18,240 nt of DNA. Origin: a bacterium. GTDB taxonomy: Bacteria > Vulcanimicrobiota > Vulcanimicrobiia > Vulcanimicrobiales > SCRA01. Location of the stretch: the NCBI GenBank assembly GCA_028869325.1, contig JAGWST010000114.1:1-18240 (forward strand), written 5' to 3'. Each line of letters starts with the position of its first letter. Positions within the stretch are counted from its first letter, which is position 1. Shown piece by piece: positions 857-12,021 of this stretch. The notes below the pieces were generated by a model. It saw only the letters and a program-made list of their open reading frames with translations, did no database searches and was not told the origin of the DNA. The position numbers and the translations under genes were made by a program.

Positions 857-2092
857 ATGAGAATATGCGTCCTTGGCGGTGATGGATACTTGGGCTGGCC
901 TACCGCCATGTATTTCTCGGCTCGTGGGCATAGCGTGCTCGCGGTCGACAACTGCATGAAGCGCCGCTTAGAAGCCGAGCTCGATGTCATTCCACTTGAA
1001 GACGTTCCTGATTTCAAGCAGCGTGCGGAGCGTTGGAACGTACTGACCGGGTGGGAGATCGAGGTCGTTCGGGGCGACATCACGCAAGCTGATCTGATGA
1101 ACCAGATTTGCGTGAACTTCCATCCCGAGGTTATCGTGCACTTCGCTGAACAGCCGTCGGCGCCGTATTCGATGATCGGCCGCGATGCTGCGGTACTCAC
1201 CCAGCAGAACAATATCGTCGGGACCCTGAACGTGATGTTCGCGATGCGCGAGCACTGTCCCGACGCCGAGCTCGTGAAGCTCGGAACGATGGGCGAATAT
1301 GGCACACCGAACATCGACATCGAAGAAGGCTGGATCGAGATCACGCACAAGGGGCGCAGCGATCGTCTGCCCTATCCCAAGCGCCCGTCGTCGCTCTACC
1401 ATTGCTCCAAAGTGCACGACTCGGTAAACCTCGAGTTCGCCTGTCGAAGCTGGGGCCTGCGCGTGACGGACCTGAACCAGGGCGTGGTCTACGGAATCGA
1501 AACCGATGAAATGTCCCTCGATCGAAAAGCGTTGCGGACGAGCTTCCACTACGACGATGTCTTCGGCACGGTGCTCAATCGTTTCGTCGTCCAGGCGGCC
1601 ATCGGTATGCCGCTGACGGTCTACGGGAAGGGCGGGCAGACGCGCAGCTTTTTGAACATCAAGGACACGCTCCAGTGCGTCGAGTTGGCAAGCGTGAATC
1701 CCGCGAGCCGGGGCGAGTTCCGCGTCTTTAACCAGTTTACGGAGCTGTTCAGCATCTTGGAGTTGGCGGAGCGCGTCAAGCGCGTGGCCCAAGCGCGCGG
1801 CCTGTGCGTCGAGATCCAAGGGGTCGCCAATCCACGCGTGGAGTCGGAGCTTCACTACTACAACGCGGCAAACACGTCACTGCTCGCCCTTGGGCTGAAA
1901 CCGCACCTGTTAAGCGATGAGCTCCTGGACGGCATGCTCGAGCGTGCACTGGAGGCCCGCAATCAGATTCGCGAGAGGTTGATCCCGCCACGGGTCGATT
2001 GGAAGCGCGGTATGGCGGCAGTGACGAGTGCTGCGGCGGGTTTCGAGGCGGCGCCCGAGCCGGAGCGCGAGCCCGCGGCCGCTACGGCGTAG
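857..2092 (+). CDS. sqdB: UDP-sulfoquinovose synthase (SQD1/SqdB family)
   Basis: This is a cytoplasmic short-chain dehydrogenase/epimerase-type enzyme of 411 residues. The family converts UDP-glucose plus sulfite to UDP-sulfoquinovose using tightly bound NAD, making the sulfonated sugar donor for sulfolipid or sulfoglycans. The nucleotide-binding motif GGDGYLG is at residues 7-13. The family-specific block GTMGEYGTPNIDIEEG and the block PYPKRPSSLYHCSKVHDS follow, placing catalytic Thr144, Tyr181 and Lys185. These almost coincide with T145/Y182/K186 of plant SQD1. Further hallmarks are DLNQGVVYG, LTVYGKGGQTRSFL and EFRVFNQFTE. The ATG at 857 is chosen over an upstream in-frame start because AAGGAG lies 6 nt before it and the Rossmann fold begins at once. 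The last ~25 residues are an Ala/Glu/Pro-rich tail. It is the first gene of a six-gene operon. No sqdX- or sqdD-type lipid glycosyltransferase accompanies it. Confidence 0.95.
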   Translation: MRICVLGGDGYLGWPTAMYFSARGHSVLAVDNCMKRRLEAELDVIPLEDVPDFKQRAERWNVLTGWEIEVVRGDITQADLMNQICVNFHPEVIVHFAEQPSAPYSMIGRDAAVLTQQNNIVGTLNVMFAMREHCPDAELVKLGTMGEYGTPNIDIEEGWIEITHKGRSDRLPYPKRPSSLYHCSKVHDSVNLEFACRSWGLRVTDLNQGVVYGIETDEMSLDRKALRTSFHYDDVFGTVLNRFVVQAAIGMPLTVYGKGGQTRSFLNIKDTLQCVELASVNPASRGEFRVFNQFTELFSILELAERVKRVAQARGLCVEIQGVANPRVESELHYYNAANTSLLALGLKPHLLSDELLDGMLERALEARNQIRERLIPPRVDWKRGMAAVTSAAAGFEAAPEPEREPAAATA

Positions 2093-2116
2093 CGGCTGCC
2101 ATATGAGGCAGTGACC

Positions 2117-3217
2117 GTGCTGGTCCGCTCGCTTCGGCCGATCGTTCCACGCGAGCTGCCACGCCCGCGACGCGGCTTCCCGTGGGCGCGTGCGATCCTC
2201 ATCGTGACGATCATTGCGCTGTGCACATACGTGTTGCTGCCGCGATACCTCAATCTGATTGCGGACGGTTTGGTCGAGGGTGATCTGATTCCCATAGCGC
2301 CGCTCTTCCGCGCACGTATCGAGCGCAGCTTCGTGCAGTGCGATCAGGTCGTACGCGAGGGGCAGCCCTTGGCGGCAGTGACAAACTTCCTGCTGGAGGG
2401 TCAATACGCACAGGATTACCAAAAGGCGGTCGACGATCTACGCGCGCAACAGATCGCGCAGAGCGAGGGCCTCGCGCAGGCCCGCATCGCGGAGGCGACG
2501 GCGCTAGAGAGGTATCAATCCTCCGTCTACGATGCTCGTAAGCTCGAGATAATGAAGGACGCCTACGAGCAGACCTATCGTCAGGGCGCGATCGGTCGCC
2601 TCGCCTTTGAGAGCGCGCGCGCCGACTGGAACGCCGCGAAGGCCGAATCGAACGGCCTGCGCGATATTTGGAGCCAGGCGCGGGAACACAGCCGCCGCAT
2701 CCAAGCGGAGAACGCTCAGCGCGTCGCGGGTTACGCCAATGAGGTGGCACTGCTCGGTGATCTGAAGAGCCAAGTCCATTCGCAGACCCTAGGCGCACCG
2801 GTTCGGGGGCGGGTCGTCGAGTGTGCGGCGCAACCGCAAGCGATCGTCGACGCCGGAACGCCGATCTACAAGATCTTTGCACCAAACCGCGCCTACATCC
2901 TCGCGTTCTTCGCACCGAACGTCGCCTCAAGCATCCACGTCGGAGAGCCTGCGAAGGTCTACATCACAGGGTTTCCGGCCCCCGTCGCGGGCAACGTCAC
3001 CGCAATCTACCCAAGTCTGGCCAAGCTGCCGGACCAATTGACGAAGTATTTCTGGCAGCACCAGCAGTGGTCCGAGTACCGGCCGGTCAAGATCGTCCTG
3101 TCGCAGGTGCGCCGAAACGTGAGAGAGCGGCTGACCTACGACGCACAGGTGCGCGTGGAGATTCGTCGCCGCGCTCTAACCTGGCAAGAGGGCGTTCACG
3201 AGGTAGGCCTGCGATGA
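2117..3217 (+). CDS. HlyD-family membrane-fusion (periplasmic adaptor) protein
   Basis: This is an adaptor expected to bridge an inner-membrane transporter or synthase to an outer-membrane channel. An Arg/Pro-rich cytoplasmic N-terminus precedes one transmembrane helix (about residues 24-43, ARAILIVTIIALCTYVLL). A first lipoyl/barrel half-motif follows (DGLVEGDLIPIAPLFRARIE). A long Ala/Gln/Glu-rich helical hairpin spans about residues 95-215. The returning lipoyl strand is APVRGRVVECAAQPQAIVDAGTPIYKI, and a beta-barrel region comes after it. This order is typical of HlyD/EmrA-type adaptors and of the periplasmic part of Alg44-like proteins. Two GTG starts compete. The GTG at 2111 has GAGG (2105-2108) only 2 nt upstream, whereas the GTG at 2117 has it at 8 nt, so 2117 is preferred (366 residues). 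It lies 24 nt after sqdB. With the GT2 synthase and TolC-like protein in the same operon, a role in glycan export is likely. Confidence 0.85.
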   Translation: MLVRSLRPIVPRELPRPRRGFPWARAILIVTIIALCTYVLLPRYLNLIADGLVEGDLIPIAPLFRARIERSFVQCDQVVREGQPLAAVTNFLLEGQYAQDYQKAVDDLRAQQIAQSEGLAQARIAEATALERYQSSVYDARKLEIMKDAYEQTYRQGAIGRLAFESARADWNAAKAESNGLRDIWSQAREHSRRIQAENAQRVAGYANEVALLGDLKSQVHSQTLGAPVRGRVVECAAQPQAIVDAGTPIYKIFAPNRAYILAFFAPNVASSIHVGEPAKVYITGFPAPVAGNVTAIYPSLAKLPDQLTKYFWQHQQWSEYRPVKIVLSQVRRNVRERLTYDAQVRVEIRRRALTWQEGVHEVGLR

Positions 3218-4236
3218 TCGAAAGGCGTCAGGATCTCTTCAGGGTGTTAGCGATCGTGCAGGGCTTGGGCGGAAATGTTCTCCCCGATTGGGATCGGGTG
3301 TCCGACCGTGGCGTCACCTACAATGCCCGTGGAGAACCGCTCGACGACCGGGATCTCGAGTCGCTGGTACAGAGCGATCATCTCGAGCGGATCTTCATGG
3401 ATCGGATCAGCCGTTGCCCTTGGTGCCGCAGCCACGCTCTGAATATGCGCGAGGTCTGCGTGAGCTGCAAGTCGCCGCGCATCGTAGCCGTCCAGCTCTT
3501 GCATCATTTTCGCTGCGGCTATGTTGCGCCTGAATATGAGTTTACTGCGGAGAGCGACGGCCGGCGCTGCCCCAAGTGCCACGGCATGCTGCGCGATCGC
3601 GGAACCGATCACGATGCTCCCGGACCGCACTTCACATGCCAGAGCTGCGACAGCTCCTTCCAGGTGCCCGAGATCGGAGCGGTATGTTTGGGCTGCGGGC
3701 GGCAAACCCACAGCGACGATCTGCAGAGGATCATCTACGAGGATGTCTACGGCTACAAGCTCAGCCCGCTCGGTGCAGCGGCCTTGCGCGCGGGCTCTCT
3801 TCAGCCCAAGCAGACGGAGCAGTTGACCGAGTTTGACCTGCCGCTGCTGCGGCGTAGCGTATTCATGGCGTTTCTGGACGATGAACGCAAGCGCCGGCGG
3901 CGTTTTCATTCGACGTTCAATGTTTTGCTCGTGACGACGGAACCGCCGGTGATCGACGGTGCCGCGCCGGACGAGCGAGCGCTCATCGAAACGATCGCTG
4001 AGTTCTTGACGGAGACCGACAAACTCGGCCGCCTCGATGAGTGCCAGTACCTGGTGCTCTTGCCATCGGTCGATTCGAAGACCGCGAGCGCGCTGGCTCG
4101 CAAACTATCGTCCGATCCATCGTCGATACTCCGCGAGTGGAAACTCCAGGCGCAAGTCGTTGTCGGACTTCTCGATGGCGCTCCGACGCCGGAGGGGATC
4201 GCCGCATCCCTGAGGGCCGTTCTTGCCGATGGTTGA
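3214..4236 (+). CDS. TackOD1-like zinc-ribbon protein with degenerate GGDEF-like domain
   Basis: This is a soluble 340-residue predicted signalling or regulatory protein with no signal peptide or membrane helix. Eleven cysteines cluster in residues 68-161, mostly as CxxC pairs: C68/C71, C82/C85, C119/C122, C142/C145 and C158/C161, plus C101 in HHFRCGYVAPEYEF. The order CxxC, CxxC, HHFRCGYV, CPKCHGMLRDRGTDHDAPGP, CxxC matches what I recall of the TackOD1 (thaumarchaeal output domain 1) family. The C-terminal part, about residues 225-338, looks like a GGDEF-type nucleotide cyclase fold. Where R-x-GGDEF would stand it has GRLDECQYLVLLP (272-284), so catalysis is probably lost. The ATG overlaps the HlyD stop by 4 nt and GAGGT lies 9 nt upstream. 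Its position between adaptor and synthase suggests it controls glycan synthesis, perhaps by nucleotide or redox/zinc sensing. That role is inferred and the domain names need profile searches. Confidence 0.75.
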   Translation: MIERRQDLFRVLAIVQGLGGNVLPDWDRVSDRGVTYNARGEPLDDRDLESLVQSDHLERIFMDRISRCPWCRSHALNMREVCVSCKSPRIVAVQLLHHFRCGYVAPEYEFTAESDGRRCPKCHGMLRDRGTDHDAPGPHFTCQSCDSSFQVPEIGAVCLGCGRQTHSDDLQRIIYEDVYGYKLSPLGAAALRAGSLQPKQTEQLTEFDLPLLRRSVFMAFLDDERKRRRRFHSTFNVLLVTTEPPVIDGAAPDERALIETIAEFLTETDKLGRLDECQYLVLLPSVDSKTASALARKLSSDPSSILREWKLQAQVVVGLLDGAPTPEGIAASLRAVLADG

Positions 4237-5521
4237 CTTTCTGCACGTCCTCGGATCGCCGCTGAGCCCGTTGGTGAGCGTCGGGGCGCTCCAGCATTGG
4301 CAGGCGCTGCTCGTCTCGAGCAACGTGCTGGTCTGGATGTTCATCGTCTCGGTGCTGCGTTTTGATGTGCCCGCATTCACGATGTGGATCGTCAGCCTCA
4401 TCGACTCGCGCGTGCTTCGTCCGCCGGGCCGGGGCGACACGTATTGGCCGTCCGTCTCGGTCATCGTCGCTGGCCGGAATCCGGGTGCGGCAATCCGGCG
4501 AACGATCAGCTCGGTCTTGGACAGTGGATATCCCCGAGTGGAGGTCCTGTACGCCGACGACCAGTCGACCGACGATAGCGTACGTCATGCCCGTTCGTTT
4601 GAGCGCTCTCGGTCGGTTCGAGTCTTCGCCTCCGCCCAGCATAGCGGCAAGCCCACGAATCTCAACCTCGCGATCCTCATGGCGCGTGGTGAGTTGGCGT
4701 TCGTGCTCGACGCGGATGCCGAGATCGAGGTCGGAACGATCCATCGGTTGGTCGCGTATTTCCGCGATCCGCGCGTTGGAGCGGTCTCAGCGAACATTTT
4801 CGTGCGCAACGCATCTTGCAACCTCGTGACGCGATTGCAGGAGATCGAGTACGCGTTGAATGGATCGATTGGGCGCCTCTGGCACGCTCGACTTGGGATG
4901 TTGCCGATTCTGCCGGGCGTAGCGTCGATCTTCCGGACCTCGGCTCTGCGCGAGCTGGGCGGCTATGATACGGGGCTCGGTGATGATACCGACATGACGA
5001 TTCGCATGCGTAAGCGGGGCTGGCGGCTGGAGTTCGCGCTCGAAGCGCGCATCTGGACCGACGAGCCGGAGACGATGGGGCGCCTAATGCGCCAGCGAAT
5101 CCGCTGGGCACGGAATATGGTAAAGGTGCGTATCCGCAAGCATGCGGATTTCATCAATCCGCGCTACGGCTGGGACAACACGGCACTTGCGCTCGATAAC
5201 CTCGTATTCCGCGTGACGCTTCCCCTCTGCGTCCTCTTCGCGATCACATGGGGACTGGCCGTTCACGGTGGCGACAAGCCGGTGTTGTTCACCAGCCTCT
5301 ACTTCTTCACGACCGTCTTAGTCTTTTGTAAGGTGCTGATCGCTAACGATCTCGCTCGCACGCCGCCCCTCTTCGATCTTGCCCTGGTACCCCTCTACCC
5401 ACCCTACCGGTTGCTGGTGCGCCTCGTCGAGGCGCTCGCGATTCTGCGCGAGCTACTCCGTATCGGCCTGTATCACCCGTACGTTCCCAGGCGCATCTGG
5501 TCCGAGATCCCCCATTGGTGA
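4229..5521 (+). CDS. Membrane-bound family 2 glycosyltransferase (processive synthase type)
   Basis: This 430-residue inner-membrane protein is predicted to polymerise, and possibly translocate, a polysaccharide using nucleotide-sugar donors on the cytoplasmic side. A hydrophobic N-terminal segment lies at about residues 27-55. The GT-A catalytic domain starts at YWPSVSVIVAGRN and carries ADDQSTDDS (109-117), the DxD-type DADAE (161-165), the acid motif GDDTDMTIRMR (251-261) and QRIRW (289-293), the Q/RxxRW motif of cellulose, hyaluronan and PNAG synthases. C-terminal hydrophobic segments at about 322-345, 350-371 and 381-411 would form the membrane part. No PilZ domain is present. The ATG at 4229 overlaps the upstream stop by 8 nt. 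A TTG at 4223 has better spacing from GAGGG (4212-4216) and is an alternative. Linkage with sqdB, HlyD and TolC-type genes suggests a secreted glycan containing sulfoquinovose, although its actual sugar donor is unknown. Confidence 0.9.
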   Translation: MVDFLHVLGSPLSPLVSVGALQHWQALLVSSNVLVWMFIVSVLRFDVPAFTMWIVSLIDSRVLRPPGRGDTYWPSVSVIVAGRNPGAAIRRTISSVLDSGYPRVEVLYADDQSTDDSVRHARSFERSRSVRVFASAQHSGKPTNLNLAILMARGELAFVLDADAEIEVGTIHRLVAYFRDPRVGAVSANIFVRNASCNLVTRLQEIEYALNGSIGRLWHARLGMLPILPGVASIFRTSALRELGGYDTGLGDDTDMTIRMRKRGWRLEFALEARIWTDEPETMGRLMRQRIRWARNMVKVRIRKHADFINPRYGWDNTALALDNLVFRVTLPLCVLFAITWGLAVHGGDKPVLFTSLYFFTTVLVFCKVLIANDLARTPPLFDLALVPLYPPYRLLVRLVEALAILRELLRIGLYHPYVPRRIWSEIPHW

Positions 5522-5527
5522 GGTCAC

Positions 5528-6850
5528 ATGGAAAGATGGACCCGTATTGCAATCACGGCCGTGCTGCTCGCAGCATGGGCGCCGGCCGGCGCGCTCCCGG
5601 CGCAAGCCGACGAGACGACCGTTCCTCTGGCGACCCTCGAGCAGCAGATCAGCGGCTCGTTGACGCTAGCTGCCGCAAAGGCGCTGATCGACGAAGACGA
5701 GGCGTCACTCCAGGTCGCGCGCGACAAAGCCGGCTTGGCGGCCTTTGCCACGAATGAGCTCGGACCGCACCACGATGTCGTGACCGACCGGAGCACCCGC
5801 TCCTTCCTGCGCTACGAGCAAGAAGCCGGGATACGCGTCCCGATGCTGGGGGCGCGTGCTCTGCAGCAGCAAGAGATCGCCATGGCCCTGGGCCAGCGGA
5901 CGCTGGGCGAACTTGCATACGAGCAGACTCGCGTGCAGGTCCTCGCCAAAGCGCGGGCGAGCTACATAGAGTACTTGACGGCTCGTCGCCTAGAGCGGCT
6001 CGCGCGCGGATTCTTCGAAGGGCTCAACGGCAACGCGCCGGCGGCGCTCGCGCTTCACAGAAACGGCTTCTGGACGGGCGCGGATAGGCTGCGGTACAAC
6101 GACCTGGTCGAGAGAACGAGGGTCGATGTCGCGCGCGCACAGGTCGGTCAAAGGAACGCTCTGCTGCAACTCGCCCTGGTGACAGGCTCGCCGCTGGACT
6201 CCTTCGCGCCGGTCGAACCGCGATTTGCAGGCTGTGCGACGACCGCGGCCATCGCGTTCGCATCGGCGGTCCGAAGCGACATCGAGTTGGCCAAGCTGGC
6301 TGCGGAGGCCAGCGAGGCGCGGGCGGTCGGCCGGCTCCAGCGCTGGATGGGATACGACGCGAACCTCTACATGGGACTCCGGACGTACGTCGACACGCCA
6401 GGCGGCCTGGGTGCGGGCTTTGTCGTCGGGCTAGACCTCGGCGTCCCCGTCCATGTCACGCGCGAGCAGCTCGATCTGCAGCGGCGCGTAGCCGCCGAAT
6501 TGCGGCAGTACGACCTGCTGGCGGAGCAGCGCCGCGCGGAGTTGGCGGCCGGCGTGGAGATCGCCCTTACCTCTCTAAAGCAGGCCTCGGTCGAGCTGGC
6601 GCAGGCGCGGCGCGACGACGTGGCCTTGCAAGAAGATGTCCGCGAGGCGCGAGTTCGATTTGCTCTCATCGCGCCGAACACCCTCACAGAGCTTCAAGCG
6701 AAGGCCGAGGCTGCGTACAGGGCACAGATCCAGACCGCTCAAGACGAAGGCGCGGTTCTGCTCCGGATCAACGACCTGTTGCAGATCGCGCCCGCTGCCT
6801 GCGATATGAAATTGACGGCGGCGCCCGATGCGGTCGGCGGGGTGAAGTGA
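5528..6850 (+). CDS. TolC-like outer-membrane efflux/export protein
   Basis: This 440-residue protein is predicted to form the outer-membrane exit duct. A signal peptide spans about residues 1-27 (positively charged start, hydrophobic core ITAVLLAAWAPAGAL, cleavage after AQA). The mature chain is dominated by long Ala/Leu/Glu/Arg-rich helices in two similar halves, for example around LAAAKALIDEDEASLQVA and later ASVELAQARRDDVALQEDVR. Short strand-like segments (GAGFVVGLDLGVPV) occur between them, as in outer-membrane efflux proteins. The length is normal for the family. GAGGT sits 3 nt before the ATG and overlaps the end of the glycosyltransferase gene, pointing to translational coupling. Together with the HlyD-type adaptor it would complete a trans-envelope route for the product of the GT2 synthase. 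No RND or ABC pump is encoded in the window, which fits export driven by the synthase rather than a classical efflux pump. Confidence 0.85.
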   Translation: MERWTRIAITAVLLAAWAPAGALPAQADETTVPLATLEQQISGSLTLAAAKALIDEDEASLQVARDKAGLAAFATNELGPHHDVVTDRSTRSFLRYEQEAGIRVPMLGARALQQQEIAMALGQRTLGELAYEQTRVQVLAKARASYIEYLTARRLERLARGFFEGLNGNAPAALALHRNGFWTGADRLRYNDLVERTRVDVARAQVGQRNALLQLALVTGSPLDSFAPVEPRFAGCATTAAIAFASAVRSDIELAKLAAEASEARAVGRLQRWMGYDANLYMGLRTYVDTPGGLGAGFVVGLDLGVPVHVTREQLDLQRRVAAELRQYDLLAEQRRAELAAGVEIALTSLKQASVELAQARRDDVALQEDVREARVRFALIAPNTLTELQAKAEAAYRAQIQTAQDEGAVLLRINDLLQIAPAACDMKLTAAPDAVGGVK

Positions 6851-8460
6851 AGATCACGTTCCTTGGACACGCGGGCTTCTGCGTCGAGACCCAGCACGCC
6901 GTCGTCGTCGCGGACCCGTGGCTCTCGCCAACGGGCGCGTTCGATGCTTCCTGGTTCCAACTTCCAAGGAACCACCACTTGGGGGCGCTCGTCGAGGAGA
7001 CGCTGGCCCTCCCCAAGGCGGCCAAGTTCGTCTACGTCAGTCACGAACACGAAGATCACTTCGATCGCGGATTTCTCGAGACGCTCCGAAACCGGAATTT
7101 CACGCTGGTCATACCCCGCTTTCGCCGGCCGGGATTCCGCCGGGCGCTCGCCGATTACCGCTGCGAGGAGCTGATCGCGACGGACGACGGGCAAGCGGTC
7201 TCCTTCCCCGGCGGCGAGCTGAAGCTCTATCTCGACGACTCGGAACTGAATCGCGACTCGGCGCTCCTGCTTCGCGCGGAGGGTGGAGTCTTTCTGAATC
7301 TCAACGACTGCCGTATCTTCGATCGCCTGCGTGCCATCTCGGAGGCGGAGGGGGCGATCGACGTCCTCACCTGCCAGTTCTCCGGCGCTTCCTGGCATCC
7401 GACCTGTTACGAGTATTCGCCAGAGGAGTTCGAGCGGATCTCCGAGGCAAAGGTCATGTCGAAGTTCGTGACGGTCGAGCGGGCCATCGACCAGTTGCGG
7501 CCGCGCATCTTTCTGCCCTCCGCCGGGCCGGTGTGCTTCCTCGATCCCGAGTTGTTCGAGCTGAACTTCTCCTCGAGTGGAATCTACCGCCGCGCTCCCG
7601 AGCTCCTGAGGTTCGTCGGCCCGGCGCTCGAGCGTGTCGGCACCGTTGCGTTCGAGGTCGTGCCGGGAGACGTTCTGGAGGTGGCGACGGGCCGGCTGCT
7701 GCCGTGCGCCGGCGATCGCTATGAAGATGCGAACTTCGTCTCGTACATGAGGGCTTATGCGGCGGAGTACGCCGACTTCTTTCGCGAGCGGGCACGTGCT
7801 CATGCCTTGGTCGATGCAGACGAGACCCTGGGGCGGTTGAAGGGAGAGCTCGAGAGAAAACTCGAGCTTTTAGTCTTGCGCGAGCGGGTGACGCTGCCGC
7901 TGTACTACGGCCTGCGCGAACGGCCCGAGGCCTGGCTGCGCGTGGATTTTCAGAACGGGCGCGTCGATCGCGCGGCCGGGATCGTTGAACCAGCCTATTA
8001 CAGCATCGTCGCCGCGGCGTGGCAAATCAGCAAGGTGCTCGATGGCGAGATGAGCTGGGAGAATTTCGCTCTCTCGTTTCGCGTCCGCTTGAAGCGCGTT
8101 CCAGACATGTACCGGGCGTTGATCCATGCGTTCCTCACGCTGGAGAAGGGCGACCTGTATCGCTTCTGCAAGATGCTCAGCGAGATCGAATCGCGCAAGG
8201 ATCGCATCACGGTGACCGCCGGCGGCAAGGCCTACGCCGTCAATCGCTACTGTCCGCATAACGGCGGCGATCTGCAGCAGGGCTGGGTTGAAAAGGATCG
8301 TTATCTCGTCTGCCCGCGACATCGCTGGTGCTTCGACCTGGAAGAGAAGGGCGCTTGCACGACGAACGCCTCGTCGATTTTCGCCGAAGAGGTCGCCGTG
8401 GAGGCCGGCGCCCTTGCGGTCAATACGGCAAGCCGAGGCGGAGCCACCAGGGATGGATAG
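6847..8460 (+). CDS. CMAH-like MBL-fold protein with C-terminal Rieske [2Fe-2S] domain
   Basis: This 537-residue cytoplasmic protein is a candidate sugar or nucleotide-sugar oxygenase. The N-terminal half is a metallo-beta-lactamase fold with FLGHAGF, DPWLSP and the metal motif H66-E-H-E-D-H71. The segments NLNDC, PRIFLPSAGPVCF and the distal WENFALSFRVRLKRVPDMY resemble CMP-N-acetylneuraminate hydroxylase (CMAH), for instance its PRIYCPFAGYF and WDDLYIGFQTRLQRDPDIY. The C-terminus carries a complete Rieske motif: C469-P-H471, 17 residues, then C489-P-R-H492. CMAH carries its Rieske domain at the N-terminus, so the domain order here is reversed. The GTG start overlaps the TolC stop as GTGA. 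No ferredoxin, cytochrome b5 or sialic-acid gene is nearby, so the electron donor and substrate are unknown; substrate linkage to UDP-sulfoquinovose or the glycan is inference. A UlaG-like hydrolase with an electron-transfer domain is the alternative. Confidence 0.85.
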   Translation: MKITFLGHAGFCVETQHAVVVADPWLSPTGAFDASWFQLPRNHHLGALVEETLALPKAAKFVYVSHEHEDHFDRGFLETLRNRNFTLVIPRFRRPGFRRALADYRCEELIATDDGQAVSFPGGELKLYLDDSELNRDSALLLRAEGGVFLNLNDCRIFDRLRAISEAEGAIDVLTCQFSGASWHPTCYEYSPEEFERISEAKVMSKFVTVERAIDQLRPRIFLPSAGPVCFLDPELFELNFSSSGIYRRAPELLRFVGPALERVGTVAFEVVPGDVLEVATGRLLPCAGDRYEDANFVSYMRAYAAEYADFFRERARAHALVDADETLGRLKGELERKLELLVLRERVTLPLYYGLRERPEAWLRVDFQNGRVDRAAGIVEPAYYSIVAAAWQISKVLDGEMSWENFALSFRVRLKRVPDMYRALIHAFLTLEKGDLYRFCKMLSEIESRKDRITVTAGGKAYAVNRYCPHNGGDLQQGWVEKDRYLVCPRHRWCFDLEEKGACTTNASSIFAEEVAVEAGALAVNTASRGGATRDG

Positions 8461-8473
8461 GCACGCTGCCCTC

Positions 8474-9340
8474 TCAGAGCGAGTCCAGTATCGTCGCCAG
8501 GTTCGCCGGCGTGCAGGCGGAGCAGTTGTTCGAGGGATAAGCGACGTAGACGGCATCGACAATTGCTCTCACAGCGGCGATCGCGGCGAGCGCGGTGGTC
8601 GGCGAGCTGTGGCGGAGCGATATCTGCGCGGAGATGACGATCCTCGGATTCGCGTTCCGCGCGAGGGCGACGGCTTGCTTGACGAAGGCGGCATAAGTCG
8701 TGACCCCGCCGCATCTCGCATCGTCGGCGAGCACCTGCGCTTGCAGGTTCAACGCGTCGACGCTCGACCAGTGGACCGCCGGCAGAATGCCGGCTGCAAT
8801 ATTGAACGTGCAACGCAGCGGGCGGATACCCAGGAACAAGCCGTCGGGCGTGATGCCGAAGGCCCTCCCCGCGGCGTGGGCTTGCAGCGCAGCCTGAGCG
8901 ATCGAGCGTATCGGGTTACGCTGCTCGGCGCTCGGCGTTCCCGGCCAATGCTCGATATCGTAGAAGACGAGCGCTGCGCCGTGGGCTGCCCAGACGTCCG
9001 CCGTCACCGCGGCGATCGAGTCGGCGAGCTGGAAGGTGTTGGTCGTGCCAATCCTTGCGGCCAGTATCGGGTCGGCTTGGACGATCCCGAGGGAGAGATG
9101 TGTGCGCGTCGTCGCCGTCTGCTGGAGTACGGGGTACGTCGCACCGAGGTTCGCCGCGAAGAGATATGCGCCGCTCGTGGCGGCGCGAGCCACCGCCAAC
9201 GCTCCGGGCGGGCCAGGAAGAGCGCCGCCCGCTCCAGCCCCTGCTCCACTGCCTGCTCCCCCGCAGGCGACGAGCGCAGCGGTGAGCGCAAGAAAGGCGC
9301 AGCGCGCCAACGATATGGATGGCTGTCTGAGGAGGTTCAT
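8474..9340 (-). CDS. Predicted lipoprotein, paralogue of the divergent secreted protein
   Basis: This is a 288-residue protein of unknown function. With the ATG at 9340, residues 1-26 form a lipoprotein signal (MNLLRQPSISLARCAFLALTAALVAC) with lipobox LVAC and Cys26 as lipidation site. A Gly/Ala-rich linker runs to about residue 40. The rest aligns by eye with the protein encoded from 9484: FYDIEHWPGTPSAEQ (127-141), GITPDGLFLGI (162-172), LNLQAQ (198-203), ISAQISLRHS (237-246) and VDAVYVAYPSNNCSACTP (261-278). Cys177, 210, 273 and 276 are shared, suggesting two disulfides. Alternating strand/helix segments ending in acidic or aromatic residues are compatible with a TIM-barrel-like fold, so an envelope glycan-active enzyme is possible but unproven. 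An ATG at 9367 is an alternative start. It converges on the Rieske gene with a 13-nt gap. Confidence 0.75.
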   Translation of the reverse strand: MNLLRQPSISLARCAFLALTAALVACGGAGSGAGAGAGGALPGPPGALAVARAATSGAYLFAANLGATYPVLQQTATTRTHLSLGIVQADPILAARIGTTNTFQLADSIAAVTADVWAAHGAALVFYDIEHWPGTPSAEQRNPIRSIAQAALQAHAAGRAFGITPDGLFLGIRPLRCTFNIAAGILPAVHWSSVDALNLQAQVLADDARCGGVTTYAAFVKQAVALARNANPRIVISAQISLRHSSPTTALAAIAAVRAIVDAVYVAYPSNNCSACTPANLATILDSL

Positions 9341-9483
9341 TGATCGAGATGTTACCACGTAGGCCATAAGACCTAGTGTGATGCTCGCTTGATGTACAAG
9401 CATTCGTCGGCACGCTCGCTGGTTGCCGCCGCTCGGAGGCATGCTCGCTTGTATGGGCCGCGTCGCAGCGGCAAGGGGGCGCT
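9341..9483. promoter_or_regulatory. Bidirectional promoter region with 30-bp-phased repeats
   Basis: These 143 nt separate two divergently transcribed paralogues. Three related 12-mers start at 9380, 9410 and 9440: gATGCTCGCTTG, gCACGCTCGCTGG-like, and cATGCTCGCTTG. The outer two share the exact 11-mer ATGCTCGCTTG (9381-9391, 9441-9451). All three share GCTCGCT. The 30-bp register places them on nearly the same helical face (close to three turns), as expected for cooperative regulator binding. The rightward gene has AAGGGGG as a probable ribosome-binding site 6 nt before its ATG. Confidence 0.5.
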
Positions 9484-10344
9484 ATGAAGCTGCGTTTGCT
9501 GTTAGCCTCGTTGGCGATGCTCGTGGTGCTCGCCTCAGCATGGATGGTTGCTCGCGCCGCGGATACGAAAGGCGCCGATCCGCCGGGGGCGTTCTTCATG
9601 TTTACGACCTCGAGGTTTGCCAACGCTGGCGAGCGCAAGGCCATCGTGGATGCCCTGCGGAGGTACGTCACCGGCCAAGATTATCTCGGCTCGCGTCTTG
9701 GGCACGAGGTGCCGGAGCTGGGTGGGCGCGTCGGCCGCGCGCATCTCTACGCTCTGCCGCCCAACCTCGAGAGCCTCGAGCGTCAAAGCGCGGGCCGCTG
9801 CGGCAGCGGGACGCCGGGTCTCATCGTCTACGACGGCGAGCACTGGCAAGAGACACCGGCGGATGAGCAGGAAGACATGCCGCGGGCAATTGCACGCGGG
9901 AAGGGAATGGTGAGAGCCACGGGCTGCCACGACTACGGGGTGGCGCCCGACGGAGAGTTCATCGGAATCGTGCCGAAAACGTGCAGCTACGAGCTGGGCG
10001 ACGCGCTCCATCGCCGCGTCGACTGGGACGACATCTCGCTATTTAACATTCAAGCCCAACGGCTACTCAGCGACGAGTGTGACCCGCGCGCCGGGCTCAA
10101 GGCGTACGTGACGTTCGTTACGGAGATCGCGCGAGATGTCCGAGCGAAGAGCCCGCGTACCAAGGTCAGCGCACAGCTCTCCTTTCGCTACACACCGCCG
10201 GACCGGATGGTCGCAGCGATCCGTCGGCTACGTGGCGTGGTCGACGGGTTTTACATCGCCTATCCGAGCAACGTCGGTCCGCGCTGTGCCTACTGCTCAC
10301 CGCATAACCTCGAGGAGGTCCTCGAGGCGATCCGGGCGACTTGA
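9484..10344 (+). CDS. Secreted protein of unknown function, paralogue of the divergent lipoprotein
   Basis: This is a 286-residue exported protein. The signal peptide spans about residues 1-26 (MKLRLLLASLAMLVVLASAW, then ARAAD). Conserved blocks with its divergent neighbour are VYDGEHWQETPADEQ (115-129), GVAPDGEFIGI (152-162), FNIQAQ (187-192), VSAQLSFRYTP (228-238) and VDGFYIAYPSN (253-263), ending in a CxxC-S-P (C268, C271). Cys167 and Cys199 also match the paralogue; Cys106 and Cys148 do not. The conserved Glu in EHW (E119) and the strand-end placement of other blocks are compatible with a glycoside-hydrolase-like barrel, but no known family was recognised. It is preceded by a repeat-bearing divergent promoter and followed, 84 nt later, by guaA. 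It sits next to the sulfoglycan operon, so a role on an extracellular glycan can be suggested only by location. Confidence 0.8.
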   Translation: MKLRLLLASLAMLVVLASAWMVARAADTKGADPPGAFFMFTTSRFANAGERKAIVDALRRYVTGQDYLGSRLGHEVPELGGRVGRAHLYALPPNLESLERQSAGRCGSGTPGLIVYDGEHWQETPADEQEDMPRAIARGKGMVRATGCHDYGVAPDGEFIGIVPKTCSYELGDALHRRVDWDDISLFNIQAQRLLSDECDPRAGLKAYVTFVTEIARDVRAKSPRTKVSAQLSFRYTPPDRMVAAIRRLRGVVDGFYIAYPSNVGPRCAYCSPHNLEEVLEAIRAT

Positions 10345-10360: not shown

Positions 10361-10428
10361 GCGACGGGTCGCATACCCCGCGCGGCATAGCCAAGGGTGC
10401 CCTCCGCCCTCTTGGAGAATGGGGCGCC

Positions 10429-12021
10429 GTGGCCTCCACGAGCTCATCGCCCTCCAGCACCGCCGTCTCGACCGCGCCGGCGCCCGTCATCATCCTGGAC
10501 TTCGGGGCCCAGTATAGCCAGCTGATCGCTCGCCGCGTACGGGAGGCGCGCGTCTACTCCGAGATCCTGCCCCACGACACGCCCTGGGAGGAGCTGCGCG
10601 AGCGCCATCCGCGCGCGATCATCCTCACCGGCGGCCCCGAGAGTGCCCTCGACGGCGATGCTCCGGCGATGGACGAGCGGATTCTCAAGAGCGGCATCCC
10701 CGTGCTGGGCATCTGCTACGGCATGCAGCTCATCGCGCGCGACTGCGGCGGCACGTTGGTCCCCTCGACCATCCGAGAGTATGGCCACGCCGAGCTCTCG
10801 CTCAACCGCGGCCGCGACTCCACGCTCTTCGACGGCGTCCCGGAGCAGAGTACGGTCTGGATGAGCCACGGTGATACCGTCACCTCCCTGCCGCCGGGCT
10901 TTCAGCCGCTGGGGCGAACGGGGCGCACGGAGATCGCTGCGATCGGCGACGACCGGCGCCGCATCTACGGGGTGCAGTTCCACCCCGAGGTGGCGCACAC
11001 GGCCTACGGCCGGAACGTGCTGAGGAATTTCCTGCATACCGTCGCGGGAATCGAGCCGACCTGGGAGATGGGGTCGTTCGTCGACGACGCCGTCGCGCGC
11101 ATCCGCGCGCAGGTCGGCGAAGCGAAGGTCATCTGCGCGCTCTCCGGCGGCGTCGATTCCGCGGTCGCCGCGACGCTGGTCGCGCGTGCGATCGGCGAGC
11201 AGCTCACCTGCGTCTTCGTCGACACGGGACTGTTGCGGGCGGGCGAGGCCGAGGAGGTCACCGCGGCCTTTCGCGAGGTGATGCACCTCAACGTGCGCTG
11301 CATCGATGCGCAAGAGCGCTACCTGCGCCTGCTCGCGGGCGAGGTGGACCCGGAGAACAAGCGCGTGCTGATCGGCCACGAGTTCATCAAGATCTTCGAG
11401 GAACAGGCGGCGACGCTGCCGGACGTGCGCTTCCTGGTCCAGGGAACGCTCTATCCCGACGTCATCGAGTCGAAGACCAAGGATTCGAAGGCGGGCCACA
11501 AGATCAAGACGCACCACAACGTCGGCGGCCTCCCGGAACAGATGAACTTAGCGTTGGTAGAGCCGTTGCGCCTGCTCTTCAAGGACGAGGTGCGTGAAGT
11601 CGGACGCGTGCTGGGGCTGCCCGAGCATATCGTGAATCGCCAGCCGTTCCCGGGGCCGGGGTTGGCCGTGCGCGTTCTGGGCGCCGTCGACGAGGAGCGT
11701 CTACGGATACTGCGCGCCGCCGACAAGATCGTGCGCGAGGAGATCGACTCGGCCGTGGAGCTGCAGCCGCACCCCTGGCAGTACTTCGCCGTGTTGACGC
11801 CGCTCAAGAGCGTCGGCGTCATGGGCGACGGCCGCACCTACGCGAACCTGGTGGCGATCCGCGCCATCACCAGCGAGGACGGCATGACGGCCGACTGGGC
11901 GCGGCTCCCGTTCGAGCTGCTGGCGCGCATGTCGACGCGGATCGTGAACGAGGTGCAGGGCGTCAACCGCGTCGTCTACGATATCACGTCGAAACCGCCG
12001 GCCACGGTGGAATGGGAGTAG
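10429..12021 (+). CDS. guaA: GMP synthase (glutamine-hydrolysing)
   Basis: This cytosolic enzyme converts XMP, ATP and glutamine to GMP, the last step of guanine nucleotide synthesis. The protein has 530 residues. A class I glutamine amidotransferase domain (about 19-205) has [18 protein letters not shown], nucleophile Cys96 in GICYGMQ, and His185/Glu187 in FHPEV. An ATP-pyrophosphatase domain follows with the P-loop SGGVDS (239-244). The C-terminal dimerisation domain includes [16 protein letters not shown] and the family ending [11 protein letters not shown]. The start is a GTG with GGAGAA about 9 nt upstream. The first ~17 residues are a Ser/Thr/Ala/Pro-rich extension beyond the usual N-terminus, and no ATG lies nearby. 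It is followed after 1 nt by purD, so the two are almost certainly co-transcribed as a purine operon. Confidence 0.97.

Follow-up and report, generated by a model that had tools for sequence, protein, structure and literature searches.

Why would a gene for UDP-sulfoquinovose synthase (sqdB) lie in one operon with a glycosyltransferase family 2 (GT2) synthase and the proteins of an export channel? We investigated this question for the operon at positions 857-8460 of an 18,240-nucleotide window, which is one whole contig (JAGWST010000114.1) of a 2.53-Mb genome (539 contigs, 82% complete). Our analyses indicate that the operon probably encodes a system for synthase-dependent polysaccharide secretion that supplies its own sulfonated sugar donor, UDP-sulfoquinovose. 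A preliminary description of this DNA had proposed that the donor serves an exported polymer and not the lipid sulfoquinovosyl diacylglycerol (SQDG). The proposal gained support in part, in that the cluster is conserved and one GT2 clade tracks sqdB, whereas the place of sulfoquinovose in the exported chain is something that we infer, with good motivation, from sequence.

Gene content and conservation of the operon

Six open reading frames (ORFs) fill positions 857-8460 of the plus strand, and the ORF listing gives junctions of +18, -4, -14, +6, and -4 nucleotides, which bears out the single-strand arrangement described before, with four of the five junctions overlapping or within 6 nucleotides. 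Pfam and NCBIfam concur with the earlier gene names wherever a family exists (genes 3 and 5 lack one in NCBIfam). The feature does not end at 8460, as had been stated: two hydrolase-like genes, at 8474-9442 (minus strand) and 9484-10344 (plus strand), had been missed, and homologues of the 9484-10344 protein travel with the operon. The genes, with the evidence for each, are as follows.

857-2092, plus strand: sqdB, UDP-sulfoquinovose synthase homologue of 411 residues (NF041015, SQD1 structures in the PDB, T-Y-K triad, SqdB tree)
2111-3217, plus strand: HlyD-type periplasmic adaptor with one N-terminal transmembrane segment (PF13437, PF16576; hydrophobic stretch 23-50)
3214-4236, plus strand: TackOD1 zinc ribbon with a degenerate GGDEF-like domain, which may regulate the synthase from the cytoplasm (PF18551, E 3e-38; GGDEF profile match, E 2.5e-08; adjoins GT2 in many phyla)
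4223-5521, plus strand: GT2 membrane synthase (PF13641; PgaC model; DADAE, GDD, and QRIRW motifs; three hydrophobic stretches)
5528-6850, plus strand: TolC-type protein of the outer-membrane efflux protein (OEP) family with a signal-like N terminus (PF02321, E 4.4e-07; hydrophobic stretch 7-25)
6847-8460, plus strand: UlaG-like metallo-β-lactamase (MBL) domain with a C-terminal Rieske domain, arranged as in NamH, putative hydroxylase of an N-acyl group or a sugar (PF13483, PF00355; HEHEDH and CPH...CPRH motifs)
8474-9442, minus strand: hydrolase-like paralogue of the 9484-10344 protein (32% identity), probably exported
9484-10344, plus strand: (β/α)8-like protein, probably exported, putative glycan hydrolase (AlphaFold2 model; homologue beside the operon in locus L062; contigs shared with TackOD1 homologues)

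The sqdB start is the ATG at 857, within a listed ORF that begins at 803; the tackOD1 reading frame begins further upstream, at 2821; and the listed GT2 start is a TTG, the true start being uncertain.

A scan of genome contigs with the TackOD1 alignment, via two peptide patterns, yielded 24 loci (the scan was not exhaustive). Five genes, namely sqdB, hlyD, tackOD1, GT2, and oep, are conserved together in four lineages: in L051 (Gallionellaceae), L052 (a Gammaproteobacterium), and L053 (Sulfuricella), sqdB is followed by a hydrolase-like gene, hlyD, tackOD1, GT2, and oep, and in L062, from a second Eremiobacterota genome, by hlyD, tackOD1, oep, GT2, and then a hydrolase-like gene on the opposite strand. 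The preliminary description had named loss of gene order in relatives as its refutation test; we ran that comparison, and the cluster proved to be kept across phyla, with oep preceding GT2 in L062. As for the six genes forming one unit, the first five do recur together, and the other TackOD1 loci compared contain no match to gene 6, which is not part of the core. Within the phylum TackOD1 is rare, in that 3 of 149 genomes contain it over the cut-off and 6 do at E ≤ 0.001, against none of 14 controls.

A clear SqdB is encoded in the fetched stretch of 9 of the 24 loci (L051, L052, L053, L055, L056, L057, L058, L059, and L062), or of 10 if a distant copy in L073 is included; in L057, sqdB is cut by the contig end. 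On the assumption that some 20% of genomes have sqdB (22 of 101), and with stretches of 20 kb and genomes of 3.5 Mb, the rough chance expectation is ∼0.03 such loci, and the association of sqdB with TackOD1 exceeds it. A GT2 match is more widespread still, being present in 21 of the 24 loci and lacking in the stretches of L054, L055, and L058, the L054 contig stopping ∼1.2 kb past tackOD1. These two counts imply that TackOD1 and GT2 comprise a wider module, of which sqdB marks a subtype. Pairs of TackOD1 and GT2 without a clear sqdB, several of them with HlyD or OEP, were seen in L061, L063-L074, and the plasmid loci L098, L099, and L101; their hosts are Omnitrophota, Caldisericota, Nitrospinota, Nitrospirota, Planctomycetota, Lentisphaerota, Proteobacteria, and a record named Chryseobacterium. 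Three of these loci, from Gammaproteobacteria (L072-L074), lie near a GlmS-like gene, with SIS and glutamine amidotransferase domains in L073, and the polymer of these loci may thus be one of amino sugars.

SqdB, the GT2 clade, and the proposed fate of the sulfonated donor

The window SqdB matches SQD1 structures with 480 bits over residues 2-384 of 411, amounting to full-length homology, and its triad of T144, Y181, and K185, with similar flanks, corresponds to T145, Y182, and K186, which we take to be the catalytic residues of SQD1. Of 15 SqdB rows compared, 14 gave residues at these places, and all 14 keep the triad (the cut L057 protein gave none). Against NF041015, the window protein scores 433.5 bits over the whole model, under the curated cut-off of 575; the other SqdBs score 341 to 529 bits, and since none reaches 575 the cut-off is not decisive. 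The window SqdB is thus predicted, by homology, to convert UDP-glucose and sulfite to UDP-sulfoquinovose. A different nucleotide sugar as its product would fit the subthreshold score and the membership of the family among many epimerase-type enzymes. We consider this very improbable, given the nearly full-length match to SQD1 and the retained triad, the similarly subthreshold score (454 bits) of an SqdB encoded beside a glycosyltransferase of family 4 (GT4) in the same order, and the sulfate-assimilation genes near sqdB in L062. The latter, at L062:521-3709, comprise cysH (PF01507), tauE (PF01925), APS (adenosine 5'-phosphosulfate) kinase, and ATP sulfurylase, a set that can make sulfite; they lie upstream of sqdB, with an opposite-strand regulator in between.

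In the SqdB tree, one clade (support 98/91) unites the proteins of the window, L051-L053, L058, and L062, and it spans Eremiobacterota and Alpha-, Beta-, and Gammaproteobacteria. Those of L055, L056, and L059 fall outside it, some of them on long branches; the L056 protein is 44% identical to the window SqdB and scores 528.8 bits to NF041015.

The GT2 protein combines DxD (DADAE), GDD, and QxxRW (QRIRW) motifs with three hydrophobic stretches, as in a membrane GT2 with processive motifs. Its best NCBIfam model is PgaC (133.6 bits, under that model's cut-off of 422.3), and NodC is also among the chain-forming models matched. We examined these synthases in a tree of 24 rows, from which the partial L059 and L067 proteins were left out and to which four plasmid rows were added. 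All seven placeable sqdB-linked GT2s, together with that of L060, form a clade that a branch supported at 100/100 sets apart from the 16 other TackOD1-linked GT2s. Moreover, 113 positions are invariant in the seven sqdB-linked GT2s, and 25 of these are rare in the others. Examples close to the catalytic motifs are D254, T256, and K301, of which L060 has D254 and K301, and not T256. Two SqdB lineages, the window type and the L056 type, accompany this one GT2 clade, and we therefore read the clade as requiring UDP-sulfoquinovose, whichever SqdB supplies it.

The GT2 tree also bears on the alternative of an ordinary neutral or amino-sugar polymer, with SqdB decorating the polymer or serving SQDG via an unlinked sulfoquinovosyltransferase. 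We regard this alternative as rather unlikely: it would account for the TackOD1-GT2 pairs that occur without sqdB in several phyla and on plasmids, and for L060, whose module also has none, but the single clade of the sqdB-linked GT2s, apart from the others, counts against it. A second alternative, in which GT2 is no polymerase and transfers sulfoquinovose onto a lipid or small acceptor, HlyD and TolC exporting the resulting sulfoglycolipid, appears improbable. Some membrane GT2s with QxxRW are lipid glycosyltransferases, and HpnI is weakly matched by the window protein; its best models, however, are chain-forming synthases, with PgaC first, and hydrolase-like partners recur at these loci.

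Synthesis of SQDG requires SQD1 or SqdB together with SqdX, SQD2, or SqdD. The window operon shares SqdB with this pathway and differs from it in encoding no lipid glycosyltransferase. Among the 21 other genomes of the same order that have SqdB, GT4 adjoins sqdB in 14, lies on another contig in 2, and was not found in 5; the adjoining pairs presumably make SQDG. The window genome has a single SqdB and no GT4 match at E ≤ 1e-15, both of which count against the first alternative above. The earlier argument from a missing SqdX or SqdD was thus examined in part, through this GT4, with the limits that GT4 is not SqdB-specific, that the searches did not extend to SqdD or the plant and cyanobacterial types, and that in an 82% complete genome a missing SqdX proves little, a point in favor of that alternative.

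A sulfonated chain with its own donor supply remains our preferred reading, and the following observations weigh against it. (i) L060, which starts in a tauE-like gene, combines hlyD and tackOD1 with a GT2 from this clade and lacks sqdB; nor does its genome (G005, 99% complete) yield an SqdB at E ≤ 1e-60. (ii) L073 has an SqdB in its stretch, a distant one (36% identity; 351.5 bits to NF041015) several kilobases away, yet its GT2 lies outside the clade. (iii) L055 and L058 have sqdB beside TackOD1 and no GT2 match in the stretch. (iv) The 25 clade-specific GT2 positions could reflect mere divergence of a long-separated clade. (v) On the SqdB tree, the label of TackOD1 linkage needs four changes. 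(vi) GT4 is present in 27 of 101 genomes, 11 of which have no SqdB hit, and is thus not a strict SqdB partner; this caveat on GT4 as a marker of the lipid pathway slightly lowers our confidence. (vii) No 3'-phosphoadenosine-5'-phosphosulfate reductase (PF01507) was found in the 82% complete window genome, compared with 14 of 14 controls, which either speaks against the simple picture or is due to the missing 18% of the genome. As a side observation, a tauE-like gene flanks the sqdB-less module of L060, as tauE lies upstream of the operon in L062.

Putative regulator, export proteins, and hydrolases, and gene 6

The mechanism that we envisage begins with UDP-sulfoquinovose, which GT2 would polymerize and pass through the inner membrane; most likely, the sulfonated sugar would alternate with an N-acyl hexosamine or be added to it. 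Such a partner is suggested because PgaC is the closest named model and because candidates that may act on N-acyl groups recur, namely the NamH-like gene 6 product here and PIG-L with hexapeptide proteins in Alphaproteobacteria. HlyD and the OEP-family protein, encoded with GT2, would provide the periplasmic adaptor and outer-membrane exit that carry the chain out. The usual exit of synthase-dependent systems is a tetratricopeptide repeat (TPR) scaffold with a β-barrel porin (AlgK/AlgE, BcsC, or PgaA type), and no TPR or porin family was found among the six operon proteins at E ≤ 0.001 in Pfam and NCBIfam. In its most specific form, the proposal is that bacteria of at least two phyla produce a polymer akin to glycosaminoglycans, with sulfoquinovose where a uronic acid would stand and an N-acyl hexosamine (N-glycolyl in the present case) as the alternating unit; a single GT2, controlled by the TackOD1/degenerate-GGDEF protein, would synthesize it, and a TolC-type conduit would release it. 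We put this form forward tentatively, as one that is less likely than not to hold in full.

The third protein had been described as TackOD1-like. Its TackOD1 domain is confirmed (PF18551, E 3e-38), and a C-terminal GGDEF-like domain had been overlooked. An alignment of 17 of 20 TackOD1 homologues (A1; three short ones were left out) matches, as a profile, solved GGDEF domains with E 2.5e-08. Individually, PF00990 is detected at E ≤ 0.01 in 5 of the 17 members, the window protein itself reaching only E 0.28, and PelD_GGDEF is weakly matched by one (E 0.0037). The predicted structure of the window protein has a mean pLDDT (predicted local distance difference test) of 80.5 but a pTM (predicted template modeling) score of 0.43. 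TackOD1 has been described in archaeal response regulators and in some bacteria, with functions termed "obscure" in 2018 (PMC5847659), and PelD is, according to the cited extract, of the degenerate GGDEF type (PMC5567048). Adjacency and fold suggest that the TackOD1 protein may act on the synthase in the way that PelD controls Pel. By eye, the 17 aligned sequences show no GGDEF motif and no RxxD site upstream of its place; for want of such a site, control by cyclic di-GMP (c-di-GMP) is a guess, which is a further count against our reading.

The AlphaFold2 model of the 9484-10344 protein (pLDDT 93.6) has eight strands with helices between them, behind a signal-like helix, and we read it as a putative TIM-barrel-like hydrolase; the protein matches no Pfam family and no solved relative by sequence (best E 0.2). 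Its homologue adjoins GT2 in L062. Further, among nine other TackOD1 homologue clusters (longest contig >7 kb), the contig size is identical to that of a listed MBL-Rieske homologue in six and to that of a hydrolase homologue in five, which is indirect but strong evidence that the three share contigs. In L051-L053, the protein between sqdB and hlyD belongs to another family, which matches PDB 10yv, named a putative GH97 (glycoside hydrolase family 97), with E 2e-13; a member of this Proteobacterial family also occurs in a Methylocystis plasmid module. A common origin of the two families gained no support from profile comparison, which shows no similarity between them, and we rejected it; this, too, counts against our reading. 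Trimming hydrolases belong to the Pel, alginate, and cellulose systems, and the hydrolase-like proteins may trim the chain here. In L066:10448-12799, one polypeptide carries both a hydrolase-like and an outer-membrane efflux domain, and L068:325-2343 and L070:3788-6598 look by eye like the same fusion.

Gene 6 had been called CMAH-like, a name that we replace. Its product has an N-terminal UlaG-type MBL domain followed by a C-terminal Rieske domain, the order that the consulted section of the NamH literature gives for NamH (PMC10050696). Many of its homologues are named UDP-MurNAc hydroxylase by the Joint Genome Institute, and "UDP-MurNAc hydroxylase-like" fits its sequence better. In 100 relatives, gene 6 has partial matches only, and 27 of 101 genomes, its own included, have any at E ≤ 1e-10. 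In its stead, the Alphaproteobacterial loci L054, L056, and L057 carry PIG-L family and hexapeptide-transferase-like genes by tackOD1. Either set of enzymes could modify an amino sugar at its N-acyl group, and for this reason we favor a hexosamine partner; hydroxylation of its N-acetyl group by the NamH-like protein would be the weakest step of the mechanism.

Comparison with known systems, potential significance, and probable mobility

The preliminary description knew of no system with this gene set, and a search of open-licence papers likewise found no described combination of sqdB, GT2, HlyD, and TolC. The Pel, alginate, poly-N-acetylglucosamine (PNAG), and cellulose systems combine an inner-membrane glycosyltransferase, a nucleotide-type regulator, a periplasmic hydrolase, and an outer-membrane exit, to which the window offers GT2, the OEP-family protein, and putative counterparts of the regulator and hydrolase; in contrast to these systems, the window has an HlyD/TolC conduit, TackOD1 zinc ribbons, and its own UDP-sulfoquinovose synthase. 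Another comparison is the BgsB-BgsA pair for mixed-linkage β-glucan (Sinorhizobium, Rhizobium etli), where, in the sections consulted, a GT2 works with an HlyD-domain protein thought to aid the export channel, as here (PMC9495663). Those sections describe a two-gene operon without sqdB or TackOD1 (PMC9495663), and the BgsA C terminus binds c-di-GMP (PMC5567048, PMC9495663). On a Sinorhizobium medicae plasmid, a TackOD1 fragment (L103:9377-9589) lies beside a GT2 and an HlyD-like frame; that GT2 could not be shown to be BgsA, and BgsBA was dismissed as the same system.

The Agl3 pathway of Sulfolobus acidocaldarius directs UDP-sulfoquinovose to a surface glycan and not a lipid, as we propose here, although its product is, by the extract at hand, archaeal and a short N-linked hexasaccharide on proteins, not a secreted polymer (PMC4245038). 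The sfz/sfb stalk cluster of Zeta- and Betaproteobacteria resembles the window system in its GT2-based exopolysaccharide and predicted hydrolase (PMC8250860), and one host of the operon studied here is a Gallionellaceae genome. The portion of the stalk-cluster description at hand assigns BcsB-like domains to Sfz1 and an EpsE-like N-terminal domain to Sfz2 and leaves HlyD and TolC unmentioned, sqdB not having been looked for (PMC8250860); on this differing gene content, we rejected it as the identity of the system.

Sulfoquinovose is an abundant organosulfur compound on the global scale, and SQDG is regarded as its source. If the proposal is true, the system would constitute a second source and a little-recognized environmental organosulfur pool; its product would be a new anionic polysaccharide, with C-sulfonate groups and not sulfate esters, on which microbes that degrade sulfoquinovose could feed. 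The TackOD1 domain would likewise gain a testable role as partner of a polysaccharide synthase.

Three genomes of the window's genus (G001-G003) have no SqdB at E ≤ 1e-60. Sequence matching theirs starts at 10390-10461, at a gene read as guaA, and blastn aligns no part of the block up to 10344 with the ∼0.8 kb (G001), 4.3 kb (G002), and 1.5 kb (G003) available upstream of their guaA-like genes, so that the operon and the hydrolase-like genes behave as an accessory block. This empty-site comparison covers the right side only, as the window starts at the first base of its contig and in G001 the contig has 777 bases ahead of the guaA-like match; on the left flank, the protein at 10-501 has weak matches in the three genus mates (E 6.6e-5 to 2e-4). 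A chimeric window contig is possible; the link of hydrolase and operon, however, recurs in L062. The G001-G003 assemblies all break within or near the guaA-like gene, a region that may be repetitive or variable. The system has probably been moved horizontally.

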